From Alicyclobacillus fastidiosus (GTDB taxonomy: Bacteria > Bacillota > Bacilli > Alicyclobacillales > Alicyclobacillaceae): a stretch of DNA of 64,000 bases. Each line of letters starts with the position of its first letter. The first letter of the stretch is position 1. The stretch is from contig NZ_CP104067.1 of assembly GCF_026651875.1 (NCBI RefSeq), positions 1,054,001-1,118,000 of the forward strand. The letters are read 5' to 3'. This document shows positions 28,799 to 59,739 of this stretch, piece after piece. The notes beneath the pieces were generated by a model, which did not search any database, was not told the origin of the DNA, and was given only the letters and a program-made list of their open reading frames with translations. The position numbers and the translations under genes were made by a program.

Positions 28799-28883
28799 GT
28801 CGGGGTGGCGGAATTGGCAGACGCGCACGTTTGAGGGGCGTGTGGGGAAACCCGTGCGGGTTCAAGTCCCGCTCTCGACACCA
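28799..28883 (+). tRNA. tRNA-Leu (anticodon GAG)
   Basis: The gene is 85 bases including an encoded CCA. The acceptor GTCGGGG pairs with TCTCGAC (with G-T pairs). The anticodon stem CACGT/GCGTG closes the loop TTGAGGG, giving anticodon GAG. A long variable arm (class II) and the GGTTCAAGTCC T-arm are present. It marks the border between the conserved block and the mobile region. Confidence 0.95.
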
Positions 28884-28944: not shown

Positions 28945-29066
28945 GACGTATTGGGGGTTCAAAATCGGGCGGTCTGTTCACGAGACGTGCGTGCACACAC
29001 AACTCGGGACGTGTGGCGCCTGACGTGTAAAGGCGCACACGTCTCAAAAAAGGAGACGTGCGCGAT

Positions 29067-29315
29067 ATGGGCTCTCGCCGAAAGAACACAGTCGATGTAC
29101 GGTATGACGCTACGGAAGTAAAACGAAAGGGGGTGCTGTCGTTCGCCGACGCGAAGACCATGTTTCTGAGGGATTGCCGCCACTTGGCGAAACAGACACA
29201 GCGATGGCATCGGGAAAACTTGATTTCGTTCGAGAAAATACTGGCCCGTCAGGACATCATCGTGGACGGTTCTGGTGCAAAAATATTTGAATACACCATA
29301 TGTAGTGTGGATTGA
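29067..29315 (+). pseudogene. truncated tyrosine-recombinase/integrase N-terminus
   Basis: About 67 residues (MGSRRKNTVDVRYDATEVKR, then FADAKTMFLRDCRHLAKQTQRW and NLISFEKILARQDI) resemble the N-terminal SAM-like arm-binding domain of phage-type integrases. The frame then runs into the 100-bp inverted-repeat element at 29268 and ends at 29315. The catalytic R-H-R-Y domain is absent from the window. Position beside a tRNA gene is typical for integrases, so this is the likely remnant of an integrated element. An imperfect hairpin (29008-29043) precedes the ribosome site AAAAAGGAG. Confidence 0.65.
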
Positions 29316-29367
29316 GTTACGATACACCACTGTATATTGTGGTTTCGTGAATTTTTGCACCAGAACC
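29268..29367 (+). mobile_element. 100-bp MITE-like element, copy 1
   Basis: The element has exact 17-bp terminal inverted repeats beginning GGTTCTGGTGCAAAAAT and no coding capacity. Its outer 14 bases (GGTTCTGGTGCAAA) equal the ends of the IS6-family element at 50767-51591. All 100 bases are identical, in reverse orientation, to 30509-30608. It interrupts the integrase frame. No 8-bp target duplication is seen around it. Confidence 0.85.
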
Positions 29368-29383
29368 CGAAAAAGTCCAATCC

Positions 29384-29935
29384 ATGATTAAGTTTTTACA
29401 GAACAGGTCTACTACAGAACTTCAACCAGGTACTGAGTCAAATGAATCTGCCCAAACTCAGGGCCGTGGTTTCGCTCCTCAGATATGGCCTGGTGCCCTT
29501 TCATCTCCCATGAGTTCGTATGGTGGGGTACCGAATTCATCAGTTCCCAATTCAACGAATAACGTAAATAAAAAGGATGACGCTCGCCCCAAGAGGCGAG
29601 GATTATTGTCCTTCCTCGCACGCCGCAGGTCAGCGGTTAGAACACCAAAGAATCGAACCGAGTCTCTTGAACGTGTTCAAAATCAACGTGCAGTTAACCC
29701 AAATGCCGTTCCCCGAAGTACAATGCCCCCGAATGGTTTACGTCAACGTTCTCAACAATTAGCCAGTCAAATGCGACATATTCCTAACCCTATGCAGCCA
29801 AACATGCAACCTCGTGGAGGAGTCATACCTAGAAGAGCAAACCAACAAATGATGCCTACACGTATTTTGGGTCCAATGCAACAGCGGAGAATTTCTCAGA
29901 AAAGAAATCTATTCGAGCATGAGAATTGGTTTTAA
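29384..29935 (+). CDS. basic disordered protein of unknown function inside inverted-repeat cassette
   Basis: A 183-residue open frame rich in Asn, Gln, Pro, Ser and Arg. It shows a basic patch (ARPKRRGLLSFLARRRS), NP/QP-rich repeats (PNPMQPNMQPRGG) and an acidic/aromatic end EHENWF. Fold prediction by eye gives disorder throughout. The upstream element ends only 16 bases before the ATG and no strong ribosome site is visible, so expression is uncertain. I recognise no family. It could be a nucleic-acid-binding or spore-associated protein, from composition only. It is the only convincing gene between the two inverted 100-bp elements. Confidence 0.5.
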   Translation: MIKFLQNRSTTELQPGTESNESAQTQGRGFAPQIWPGALSSPMSSYGGVPNSSVPNSTNNVNKKDDARPKRRGLLSFLARRRSAVRTPKNRTESLERVQNQRAVNPNAVPRSTMPPNGLRQRSQQLASQMRHIPNPMQPNMQPRGGVIPRRANQQMMPTRILGPMQQRRISQKRNLFEHENWF

Positions 29936-30508
29936 TACAACCCCGCCTATTCCGAGCGGGTCCCGTATAAAAAGTGAAGAAACCAGCCTCACTCTCTGGT
30001 TGACTCGAAATTTACTCAGACGGTCATATTGTTTATGACCGGACGTTTGTCGTGGCAAGTTTGGCTCGATACTATAGTTGGTAATCGAGCGTTCATCAAA
30101 GGATTCCACGTATTTAATATGAAGTACGCATCATTACTCGGACGCTCCCTGCGTCCGTTTGGTAATAATGTACATACCATTTCTGACCACAAAATAAGCA
30201 TTGTAAAACGTAAGGAACCACCGTTTACAACAGCCTTACACCATTCCTGAAGTCTGATACGACAACAGCACTAGGGGTCCTGTGAAAAACGCTCGTCATC
30301 TGTCTGTCTTATCTTTTGGGGAGTTTTCAATTTCCTAAATATAGGGATTATTCGTGCAGCATGGTGCGTTTATTCTGTATTTGGGGTCACTTTTTGCTCC
30401 ACCTCCGCCTGTTTTCTGCCTCTTAAGTCGTTTTTAGGCACACTTATCCCGTTCTCGGCCTGACGATTCTCGTAAGGTAGCTATCCGAGCTAGCTCGTCA
30501 ATATTATG
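29936..30508. other. non-coding interior of the inverted-repeat cassette
   Basis: These 573 bases contain only short, unconvincing frames. A CCCGC/GCGGG hairpin just after the gene could be a weak terminator without a T-run. No transposase-like sequence is found, so the cassette is non-autonomous. Confidence 0.5.
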
Positions 30509-30608
30509 GGTTCTGGTGCAAAAATTCACGAAACCACAATATACAGTGGTGTATCGTAACTCAATCCACACTACATATGGTGTATTCAAATATTTTTGCA
30601 CCAGAACC
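30509..30608 (-). mobile_element. 100-bp MITE-like element, copy 2 (inverted)
   Basis: An exact reverse-complement copy, 100 of 100 bases, of the element at 29268-29367. Together they form 100-bp inverted repeats with 1,141 bases between them. The flanks (ATATTATG and TCGCGCTA) are not a target duplication, nor do they match the flanks of copy 1 in either orientation. Confidence 0.85.
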
Positions 30609-35242: not shown

Positions 35243-35456
35243 CGTATCACCTTTATGATTAGTGTATCCGCAAATCCAAAATGACCCCCTACGGATCAAT
35301 TAAAAATCGTAGGGAGCTCCAAGTGTAACTGTTTTTCGGGCTATAGAGAGACCTTATGCAAAGGGCCACTTTCAGAACACTGATCTTCAATATATATCTG
35401 AAAATTCTCTAGTTAGGTTACAGACATTTGCTTCCAAGCATAAGGTTCAAAAGATG

Positions 35457-35610
35457 GTTCTGGTGCAAAGATTATGAGCAATAGAGACTGAGCCACTATC
35501 ATTTTTTCGATTACGCAGATAAACCAAACAGGTGATTGATGAACTCTGCGACGTTAGAGACAGGCGAGTGCTGTAACTCGACCTGTACCTTCCTTTATGG
35601 AGGTATGTCA
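35457..35610 (-). mobile_element. IS6-family right-end fragment, diverged
   Basis: GGTTCTGGTGCAAAGATTAT at 35457 equals, apart from one base, the inverted right end of the IS6 element at 51591. The similarity continues with gaps into the 3' end of its transposase (CAGGCGAGTGCTGTAACTCG region). The rest of the element is lost. It is an older copy, more diverged than the copies at 50767 and 58916. Confidence 0.75.
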
Positions 35611-41044: not shown

Positions 41045-41719
41045 ATGACTGTTTCAAAACGCATTTTGATGGTCGTGACTAACCACACAGAAATCACCGA
41101 TGATCATAAAACAGGACTTTGGTTGGAAGAGTTCGCTGTCCCATATAACGTCTTTAAAGAACAAGGTTATGACGTTAAGGTAACCAGTATTTTGGGTGGT
41201 GAGGTCCCGCTTGATCCAAGCAGTTTGCCCGCTGAGAAGAATGCAGATTGGGCGGAAGCGGAGAAAGAATTAACCCATACCATCAAATTAAGCAGAGATG
41301 ACGCACAAGGATTCGATGCTATTTTTCTTCCTGGCGGTCACGGAACGATGTACGATTTTCCAGATAATGAAACCTTGCTTTACATTTTACAGCAATTTGC
41401 AGAAGATAACAGAGTCATTGGAGCTGTTTGTCATGGACCTTCAGGCTTAGTAAATGCTACTTATAAAAATGGAACCCCTCTGGTAAAAGATAAAAACATC
41501 ACTTCCTTCACCGATGCCGAAGAACGGGAAGTCAAATTGGACCAACATATGCCTTTTTTGCTTGAAACCACACTTCGAAAAATGGGTGGAATTTTTTCAT
41601 CTCGTAGCAATTGGACAGACTTCTCAGTTCGAGATGGGAATTTAGTCACCGGGCAGAATCCACAGTCCAGTAAAAGTACAGCCGAAAAAGTCGTGGATGC
41701 CATCAAAAATGAAATTTAA
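41045..41719 (+). CDS. DJ-1/PfpI family protein (Hsp31/glyoxalase III-like)
   Basis: A 224-residue protein with the nucleophile elbow AVCHGPSGLVNA (Cys-His) and the acidic residue in FLPGGHGTMYDF. The length and LWLEEFAVPYNVFKEQGYDV pattern match the Hsp31/glyoxalase III-like group, which converts glyoxals to hydroxy acids or acts as chaperone. It lies 93 bases after hxlB, with its own GGGAGGAC site, suggesting aldehyde detoxification as a shared theme. A partial copy lies at 49003-49308. Confidence 0.85.
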   Translation: MTVSKRILMVVTNHTEITDDHKTGLWLEEFAVPYNVFKEQGYDVKVTSILGGEVPLDPSSLPAEKNADWAEAEKELTHTIKLSRDDAQGFDAIFLPGGHGTMYDFPDNETLLYILQQFAEDNRVIGAVCHGPSGLVNATYKNGTPLVKDKNITSFTDAEEREVKLDQHMPFLLETTLRKMGGIFSSRSNWTDFSVRDGNLVTGQNPQSSKSTAEKVVDAIKNEI

Positions 41720-41745
41720 ATATATGTCCTGGATAGAACCGTACC

Positions 41746-41787
41746 AATAGCACCGTTTCAAACCATCTAGTTTTGAACGGTGCTATT
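41746..41787 (+). terminator. terminator after DJ-1 gene
   Basis: AATAGCACCGTT pairs with AACGGTGCTATT across a 16-18-base middle that itself pairs (TCAAAAC-like / GTTTTGA). Strong stem, weak T-run (AGATTT). The same hairpin is repeated at 49335 after the partial gene copy. Confidence 0.75.
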
Positions 41788-49002: not shown

Positions 49003-49308
49003 AGGGAGGTACTTTTTGATGGCTGCCCTTTGGGCTTAGTGAACGCCACTTACAAAAATGGAACGCCTCTGGTAAAAGGTAAAAACATTACTGCCTTCAC
49101 TGATGACGAAGAAGGCGAAGTCAAATTGGACCAACATATGCCTTTTTTGCTTGAAACCACACTTCGAACAAAGGGTGGACTCTTCTCATCTCGTAGCAAT
49201 TGGACAGACTACTCAGTTCGAGATGGAAATCTAGTCACCGGGCAGAATCCACAGTCCAGTAAAAGTACAGCTGAAAAAGTAGTGGATGCCATCGAAAATC
49301 AAACTTAA
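49003..49308 (+). pseudogene. partial copy of the DJ-1/PfpI gene
   Basis: From about 49025 the sequence parallels 41435-41719: GLVNATYKNGTPLVKGKNIT, KLDQHMPFLLETTLR and GQNPQSSKSTAEKVVDAI. The ribosome site and ATG (AGGGAGGT, 49019) resemble those of the full gene, but that ATG is out of frame and ends after six codons. About 390 bases with the active-site cysteine are deleted. The duplicated segment continues past the stop through the terminator to about 49450. Confidence 0.8.
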
Positions 49309-49334
49309 ATTTATGCCCTGGATAGAACTATACC

Positions 49335-49376
49335 AATAGCACCGTTCAAAACCATCCAGTTTTGAACGGTGCTATT
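49335..49376 (+). terminator. terminator after partial DJ-1 copy
   Basis: AATAGCACCGTTCAAAAC pairs with GTTTTGAACGGTGCTATT over an 18-bp stem interrupted by a CATCCA-type loop. It duplicates the hairpin at 41746 and pairs better than that copy. Confidence 0.75.
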
Positions 49377-49656: not shown

Positions 49657-50358
49657 TTACAGCATCGCGTATACTTTCATTCGGTAATATGGAATGAAGA
49701 GTTTCGGCCGCGCTAGAGGAAACAATGTCTTCAGTTCTTGGAAATCCTTCCAGGTCACATAGCTTTTCCGGCTACGGCTGCTGAGCATGCGTCGCCAGTA
49801 AAAGTCTGTTGCCTGATACACCTTGATGAGCCACCTCATGTTTCCAGCCATGCCGTAATAGGCATAGTGCCCTTGAAGCATCTGGTTGATTTGGCGGACT
49901 TGTTCTTCAATTGACCGGTGTCGGATTTTCCGCATCGTTTCCTGCACTTTACCTATACTGCGCTTGAGTCGTTGCTTCTCCGTTTTCCGCCCAACCATGA
50001 AGTTCCCCTTGCGGTTTCGAGTACAGTAGTGTGTGAAACCGAGAAAGTATAGTGTTTCCGGTTTCTTTCTACCCCTGGCTTTTGCGTGGTTACTCGCGAA
50101 CCGACCAAATTCAATCAGTCTAGTCTTACTTGGCTCTAGCTCTAGCTTGAACTTGTTCAGCCGTTTCCGGAGCACCTCTTGGAACCGTATCGCATCACTT
50201 CGATACTGGAAGCACACGATGAAATCATCTATGTAGCGGATGAGGTGTGCCTCTCCTCTGAGTCGAGGCTTTATAGCCTTCTCAAACCAGAGGTCAAGCA
50301 CGTAGTGAAGGTACAGATTGCTCAACAAAACACTGATTGAACCGCCCTGGAGAACTCC
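49657..50358 (-). pseudogene. group II intron reverse transcriptase/maturase, 5'-truncated
   Basis: The minus-strand frame begins abruptly at about 50358 with GVLQGGSISVLLSNLYLHYV (palm motif), then HLIRYIDDFIVCF with the catalytic YxDD. Thumb/maturase sequence follows (ETLYFLGFTHYCTRNRKGNF, IEEQVRQINQMLQGHYAYYG) and the frame ends at 49657. The first half of the protein and the intron's ribozyme domains I-III are lost where the IS1182-like sequence begins. Confidence 0.85.
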
Positions 50359-50766: not shown

Positions 50767-51591
50767 GGTTCTGGTGCAAAAACACCAGGCATGCTAGTAT
50801 TGTCCGGATAAATTTTAGGGATGAGGCTGACATGCTATGAATACGTTCAAATGGAAGCACTTCGAAACTCATATTATCCTAATGGCGGTTCGGTGGTATT
50901 TGCGATACAGCTTAAGTTACCGGGACATCGTCGAACTGCTAAAAGAAAGAGGAGTTCAGGTTTCTCATACCACAATCATGCGATGGGTCCATCAGTTCGG
51001 TCCAGAGTTGGACAAGCGTATTCGACGTTATTTGAAGCCGACCACCGATTCCTACAGAGTTGACGAAACCTATATTAAAGTGAAGGGAAAATGGACTTAT
51101 CTATATAGAGCAGTGGACTCTAAAGGGAAAACTGTTGACTTCATGCTGTCTTCAAGTCGAGATGTTAAAGCTGCAAAGCGATTCTTTAGAAAAGCACTGT
51201 CTTCGCCGCATAATCAAACGCCGCGAGTCATCACCGTAGATAAAAACCCAGCTTACCCTCCGGCACTACAGCAATTAAAAGACGAAACGGAGATACCGCA
51301 AGAAACCTCAATCCGGCAGACGAAATATCTGAATAACATGGTTGAACAAGACCATCGATTCATCAAGAAAATCACGAATCCGATGCTGGGATTCAAATCG
51401 TTTCAAACTGCTGAAAGCAGACTTAAGGGAATTGAGGCCATGCACATACTGAGGAAAGGACAGGTTGAGATACAGCACTCGCCCGTTTCTTCCATCGTGG
51501 CGTTCATGGACCACCTGTTTGATCTATCTGCATAACCGGAAATATGAGAAATGGCTCAATCTCTTTTGCTCGTAATCTTTGCACCAGAACC
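50767..51591 (+). mobile_element. intact IS6-family insertion sequence (825 bp)
   Basis: The element is bounded by GGTTCTGGTGCAAAAACACC on the left and CTTTGCACCAGAACC on the right, with inverted repeats of 14 bases, and encodes one intact transposase. Flanking octamers CGTCCGTG and GAATTTTC are not duplicates. It cuts the IS1182-like gene on its left side. IS6 elements move by forming cointegrates. Confidence 0.9.
50837..51535 (+). CDS. IS6-family transposase
   Basis: A 232-residue DDE transposase. The N-terminal helix-turn-helix is SYRDIVELLKERGVQVSHTT. Catalytic residues are in DSYRVDETYIKVKGKW (D), VITVDKNPAYPPAL (D) and NNMVEQDHRFIKK (E), with the normal spacing, and RRYLKPTTDSYRVDETY is the family block. 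The frame is intact and likely functional, so it could act on all DNA carrying the shared 14-bp ends. Confidence 0.95.
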   Translation: MNTFKWKHFETHIILMAVRWYLRYSLSYRDIVELLKERGVQVSHTTIMRWVHQFGPELDKRIRRYLKPTTDSYRVDETYIKVKGKWTYLYRAVDSKGKTVDFMLSSSRDVKAAKRFFRKALSSPHNQTPRVITVDKNPAYPPALQQLKDETEIPQETSIRQTKYLNNMVEQDHRFIKKITNPMLGFKSFQTAESRLKGIEAMHILRKGQVEIQHSPVSSIVAFMDHLFDLSA

Positions 51592-58915: not shown

Positions 58916-59739
58916 GGCTCTGGTGTAAAAACACCAGGCATGCTAGTATTGTCCGGATAAATTTCAGGGATGAGGCTGTCATGGTATGCATGCGTTCAAA
59001 CGGAAGCACTTCGAATCTCATATTATCCTGACAGCGGTTCGGTGATATTTGCAATACAGCTTAAGCTACCGGGATATCGTCGAACTGCTCAAGGAAAGAG
59101 GAGTTCAGGTTTCTCATACTACTATCATGCGGTGGGTTCACCAGTATGGTCCTGAGATCGATACACGCATTCGTCGTTTCTTAAAGTCAACTACCGATTC
59201 CTACAGGGGTGACGAAAGCTATATTAGAGTGAAAGGACAATGGAAATATCTTTATAGGGCGGTGGATTCTAATGGGCAAACCATTGAATTCATGCTGTCT
59301 ACGAATCGAGATGTCCTCGCCGCAAAGTGATTCTTTAAAGAGGCGTTATCTTCCCACACAATCAATCACCACGTGTCATCACCGTAGATAAAAACCATGC
59401 TTACCCTCCGGCACTACAGCAATTAAAGGACGAAACGGAGATACCGCAAGAAACCTTAATCCGGCAGACGAAATACCTAAATAACATTGTTGAACAAGAC
59501 CACCGATTCATCAAGAAGATCACGAACCAGATGCTGAGATTCAAATCGTTTCAAACTGCTGACAGCACACTTAAGGGAATTGGGGCCATGCACATACTGA
59601 GGAAAGGACAGGTTGAGATACAGCACTCGCCCGTTTCTTCCATCGTGGCGTTCATGGACCACCTGTTTGATCTATCTGCATAACCGAAAATATGAGAGAT
59701 GGCTCAATCTCTTTTGCTCGTAATCTTTGCACTAGAACC
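58916..59739 (+). mobile_element. IS6-family element, decayed copy (824 bp)
   Basis: The ends are degenerate (GGCTCTGGTGTAAAAACACC left, TTTGCACTAGAACC right) but full length, and about as long as the intact copy at 50767. Flanks show no 8-bp duplication. It lies between cydA and the nitrilase gene. Confidence 0.9.
58986..59683 (+). pseudogene. IS6-family transposase with stops and a frameshift
   Basis: The sequence follows the transposase at 50837 closely. ATG 58986 is followed by an in-frame TGA where the intact copy has Trp (codon 20), a second TGA at 59328-59330, and a frameshift just after it. First-Asp region reads RGDESYIRVKGQW; Glu region retains NNIVEQDHRFIKK. It cannot make active protein. 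Confidence 0.9.

Follow-up and report, generated by a model that had tools for sequence, protein, structure and literature searches.

IS6-family MITEs are already on record: ISfinder holds two, MITEBth2 and MITEHarch3 (PMC6807381), and sizes of 227 and 336 bp are given for IS6 MITEs (PMC7986276). The initial annotation called non-autonomous relatives of IS6 not commonly described, which is fair but not strictly so, given the two in ISfinder (PMC6807381). For the IS6 route itself, inversion, deletion and loss of target duplications have been described (PMC7986276). Here we describe a 100-bp element that carries IS6 terminal inverted repeats, is short, lacks a transposase and is multicopy, and of which two copies form an inverted pair in the window, that is, the whole stretch of 64,000 nucleotides that was analysed (C1:1054001-1118000 of a host genome of 6.0 Mb in four contigs, the record of which gives an estimated contamination of 9.4%). 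Our comparisons make it likely that the element is a non-autonomous IS6-family MITE that would be moved by a resident IS6 transposase in copy-in fashion, and that intramolecular events left the two window copies behind as sisters.

A 100-bp element with IS6-type ends

The pair lies among the following features of the window:

28799 to 28883, plus strand: tRNA-Leu(GAG), left attachment site of a ~38-kb island
29058 to 29267, plus strand: tyrosine integrase fragment (N-terminal), interrupted by MITE copy 1
29268 to 29367, plus strand: MITE copy 1, 100 bp, with 17-bp terminal inverted repeats and a strong hairpin
29368 to 30508, no strand given: single-copy DNA between the two MITE copies
29384 to 29935, plus strand: ORF of 183 aa, 5'-truncated paralogue fragment with no Pfam match
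30509 to 30608, minus strand: MITE copy 2, identical to copy 1 and inverted
35456 to 35543, plus strand: remnant of one IS6 end
50767 to 51591, plus strand: IS6-family element with an intact transposase and the same ends, candidate trans-acting helper
58916 to 59739, plus strand: decayed second IS6 copy with a broken transposase frame

As the initial annotation had it, the two copies are identical and inverted: repeat comparison gave 100% identity over 100 bp in opposite orientation (101 nt counting one flanking base, with 1139 nt separating the arms), and a chance origin of this 100-bp inverted repeat is impossible. Each of the four MITE ends in the window has the sequence GGTTCTGGTGCAAA, as does either end of the intact IS6 element at 50767-51591, and it was found at nine window sites at up to two mismatches, compared with 0.4 expected from shuffles. 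The 14 bases that the MITE ends were said to have in common with the IS6 element at 50767 were borne out, and the right ends of other resident IS6 copies, for example at C1:97144 and C1:1306437, match the MITE ends even at 17 of 17 bases (end GGTTCTGGTGCAAAAATCA). The transposase ORF of the element at 50767 (50837-51535) is intact and matches DDE_Tnp_IS240 in Pfam with an E value of 1.8e-45, and it is one of several intact IS6 transposase genes in the host genome.

The host genome contains 21 essentially full-length copies of the MITE together with fragments, and a 109-bp variant at C1:86609-86717. The 14-bp end occurs there in 64 exact copies, and at up to one mismatch at 84 sites, compared with two for a reversed-pattern control. 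The copies are clustered: five close pairs lie within 4 kb where 0.6 were expected, and none of 20,000 shuffles reached five. With an IS6 match threshold of E≤1e-60, 15 matches were obtained in the host genome and none in the congeners with few MITE copies. The MITE-rich genome is also IS6-rich, a correlation that bears on the idea that an IS6 transposase may mobilise the MITE in trans. Separately, an IS6 copy at C2:183731-184591 (L100) is joined directly to the first 36 bp of a MITE and gives the appearance of an insertion into it.

The initial annotation had proposed looking for further copies in related genomes. Among 40 relatives, a single full MITE copy is present in each of two congeners and a third carries diverged or partial ones, and in a class-wide sample of 399 genomes the family was confined to the host's genus. 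Divergent 109-bp relatives were found in Paenibacillus filicis (L235 and L236) and in the Bacilli MAG RYN_352 (L237 and L238), the Paenibacillus copies coming from a more permissive search of chosen genomes and not from the 399-genome sample. The ends are retained in the 109-bp copies, as are two interior boxes also present in the host genome, ATRCCAWATG and TATATTGTGG; the central loop is different. Searches of plasmid records and viral contigs with the MITE gave no match. A scan of the IS6 ends of related loci for the MITE interior or its boxes gave none in any sampled end, and it is the ends that speak for descent of the MITE from IS6, because the interior matches no IS6 sequence found. A bolder reading, which we regard as doubtful, is that the MITE is an old lineage common to the host's genus and Paenibacillaceae, that the boxes are kept for a function of their own (for example, as a binding site for a second transposase or a host factor) and that the element is a minimal unit that would invert genes and fuse replicons in trans.

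Two side observations concern the spread of such elements. One MITE insertion, found at C1:48157, at C1:2839514 and at position 3385567 of contig C1 in the related genome G001, lies inside a 3-3.6-kb segment that is duplicated in the host genome and present in G001 at 96-98% identity; because this segment is also in G001, some MITE insertions are common to different species. In Ectobacillus panaciterrae, elements of 40 and 60 bp (L240 and L239) consist of little beyond two back-to-back IS6-type ends.

Duplications of 8 bp at an inverted and at a direct MITE pair

Target duplications were sought by comparing the 8-bp flanks at 79 listed MITE and IS6 ends, 75 from the host genome and four from relatives, the comparison covering the listed ends only and reporting up to one mismatch. 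Exact matches with a sensible geometry numbered two, where chance would give 0.06 among the 79 ends (P = 0.002 for two or more). Both belong to sister copies of the window pair, and each restores a gene:

C1:100707-100806 and C1:101532-101631: inverted MITE pair with an inverted 8-bp target duplication
C2:130124-130223 and C2:159198-159297: direct MITE pair with an 8-bp duplication on the facing sides

No such duplication was found at the window pair, the flanks of which were compared with all 79 ends in direct and inverted geometry. Single MITE copies likewise showed no direct 8-bp duplication at any site, and neither did full IS6 copies.

In the first case, the 8 bp that adjoin C1:100806 on its inner side are the exact reverse complement of the 8 bp that adjoin C1:101631 on its outer side. 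An inverted duplication placed in this way, internal to the pair at one copy and external at the other, is the signature of replicative transposition within one molecule accompanied by inversion (PMC7986276, Fig. 6 and text). The two halves of an EamA transporter gene lie on opposite strands in the host genome, and re-inverting the 725-bp interior, minus one duplication, gives a continuous gene (Pfam E value of 5e-41). Intact orthologues at ~75% identity are present in three relatives (G001, G030 and G033), and their alignments run gap-free through the joint at residue 210. The reading of this pair as the product of a replicative inversion is well supported by these sequences.

In the second case, TTAGAAAG stands to the right of the MITE at C2:130124 and to the left of that at C2:159198, and joining the facing sides restores an interrupted DUF1643 gene. 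Because this join restores the gene, the 29-kb segment must once have been closed on itself. Contig C2 measures 204.9 kb, of which the MITE-bounded part is C2:130124-159297 (L097-L099); a rep-like gene and parA lie inside the segment (C2:156060-157834), and a homologous rep and parA pair, at 33% and 49% identity, lies outside it (C2:171272-173111). The duplication of TTAGAAAG, the DUF1643 join and the presence of rep and parA on each side together indicate that two plasmids were joined at a MITE into the cointegrate C2. This fusion is well supported, independently of whether C2 is closed in the assembly.

The window pair and the readings of its origin

Both window copies have a private base (TTGAGTT in the loop) that is in no other aligned copy, and for this reason we regard them as sister copies. 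The initial annotation had the pair enclosing one gene and no transposase; the absence of a transposase stood, whereas the gene is a 5'-truncated fragment. Its frame reads EKVQSMIKFLQNR from the MITE border, and a paralogue at C1:4625374 begins MKIDSLMRMGITAYNMIQDEKVQSVIKFLQNR and has the missing start, MKIDSLMRMGITAYNMIQD. A second paralogue, at 45% identity, adjoins another MITE at C1:4632205. As a unit, the interior is absent from the 40 related genomes and occurs once in the host genome, and 115 bp of it resemble sequence 3' of a gene in one relative (G016); by its composition, the interior is a patchwork with a truncated ORF. Copy 1 truncates genes on both sides, the enclosed ORF inside and the integrase outside, the latter stopping at the equivalent of residue 85 of a 340-aa homologue in G025. 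A search next to the other MITE and IS6 ends for the parts that both have lost found neither; a distant integrase match (36%) ~1.4 kb from the MITE at C1:4179123 is a different gene and not the lost part.

Beyond the pair, the duplicated 3' end of the tRNA-Leu gene (~60 bp) lies at C1:1120799-1120862, ~2.9 kb past the window end. The tRNA-Leu(GAG) island, from window position 28880 to C1:1120862, has a truncated integrase, and is missing from that site in a close relative (G004). The window has a second repeat pair, at 41438-41787 and 49027-49376 (90%). It lies close to an ORF (49657-50328) that resembles reverse transcriptases, and probably represents the remains of a group II intron.

At the window pair no target duplication is present, so that we infer its origin from the sister copies on C1 and C2. 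A resident IS6 transposase would recognise the 17-bp MITE ends, and the MITE would move by the IS6 copy-in, or replicative, route with 8-bp target duplications, its transposition yielding inversions, adjacent deletions and cointegrates. One window copy would then have arisen from the other by replicative inversion, and a later adjacent deletion may have taken the target duplications and, with them, the body of the integrase and the 5' part of the enclosed gene. Replicative inversion and then adjacent deletion would account for why the copies are identical and inverted, why genes are truncated and why the duplications are missing. Thus, the window pair is probably what such events left behind rather than a gene cassette that functions.

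As an alternative, we considered that the two MITEs bound a composite (pseudo-compound) transposon of 1.34 kb that moves the gene inside it, like the Tn3-derived TIME-COMPs. The copies are perfect and inverted with intact outer ends, and MITE-bounded composites, inverted ones included, are known for Tn3-family MITEs (PMC13367494, PMC4133298). A direct MITE pair elsewhere in the host genome (C1:5093949-5095958, L096) also encloses an intact cytochrome P450 gene. However, in the window the outer flanks, TCGTGGAC and TCGCGCTA, are different, the unit occurs at one site and the passenger gene is not intact, which makes this reading improbable. In the proposal that the pair is a non-autonomous unit movable by IS6, the MITE-like nature and the IS6 ends therefore hold, as do the 8-bp duplications of sister copies at an inversion and a fusion, but the mobile cassette does not: the pair has no duplication, the interior occurs once and the ORF is truncated. 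As an observation in its own right, the P450 pair fits a MITE-bounded cassette better than the pair in the window does, and no duplication was seen at it.

It is also unlikely that the copies inserted independently at an earlier time and owe their identity to gene conversion. The window pair has no common target duplication, as this reading would expect; yet its private base is explained by a simple sister origin, and gene conversion would act on all 21 copies, which are not identical. Even less probable is an invertible switch, in which recombination between the copies would flip the 1.1-kb interior. At 100 bp, perfect inverted repeats have sufficient length for homologous recombination, but there is no intact site-specific recombinase beside the pair, promoter-like sites in the region are not above chance level and the enclosed gene is truncated, so that any inversion would be incidental. 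Finally, a REP-like or RNA element kept for host function rather than a transposon would fit the strong hairpin into which a MITE copy folds (z of -8) and the interior boxes conserved in Paenibacillus, but is extremely unlikely given the 8-bp duplications, the gene disruption and the replicon fusion, all of which show transposition; moreover, an Rfam search gave no match at the MITE, and we claim no RNA role for it because its stem pairs show almost no compensatory change (1 of 29 pairs).

Relation to described systems

Plasmids and resistance genes owe much of their reshuffling to IS6-family elements, of which IS26 is one. If transposase-less relatives of 100 bp carry out inversions and replicon fusions, as the sequences indicate, a part of this traffic would be invisible to annotation based on transposases. 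The 100-bp MITE is also a compact natural test of the sequences that an IS6 transposase needs. Our literature search, of incomplete coverage and no proof of novelty, found no report of an IS6 MITE making an inversion or a replicon fusion.

Two described systems resemble the window pair in layout and differ in their elements. In the Tn3-derived TIMEs and TIME-COMPs, MITEs likewise bound passenger DNA and are moved in trans by a replicative route (PMC4133298, PMC13367494), but these have Tn3-type ends, 5-bp duplications and often res sites, whereas here IS6-type ends go with 8-bp duplications, and no res site was recognised. The 439-bp MITEs that flank integrons in Acinetobacter are likewise identical copies on both sides of passenger DNA (PMC3934969); however, they are a different element, and their passenger, with its intact resistance genes, is considered mobilised, whereas the passenger here is a fragment.

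There are parallels within the IS6 family itself. The pseudo-compound transposons of IS26 and IS6 share the geometry of inversion, adjacent deletion and cointegrate formation, with 8-bp duplications that are often lost (PMC7986276); here, in contrast, the acting ends are on a 100-bp element without its own transposase. MITEBth2 and MITEHarch3 are likewise short, with IS6-type ends and no transposase, and in a comparison by description only, the present element differs from them in its size of 100 bp, its more than 20 copies and its duplications tied to inversion and replicon fusion. Overall, IS6 MITEs themselves are already known, and the 100-bp element is a new and much smaller one.
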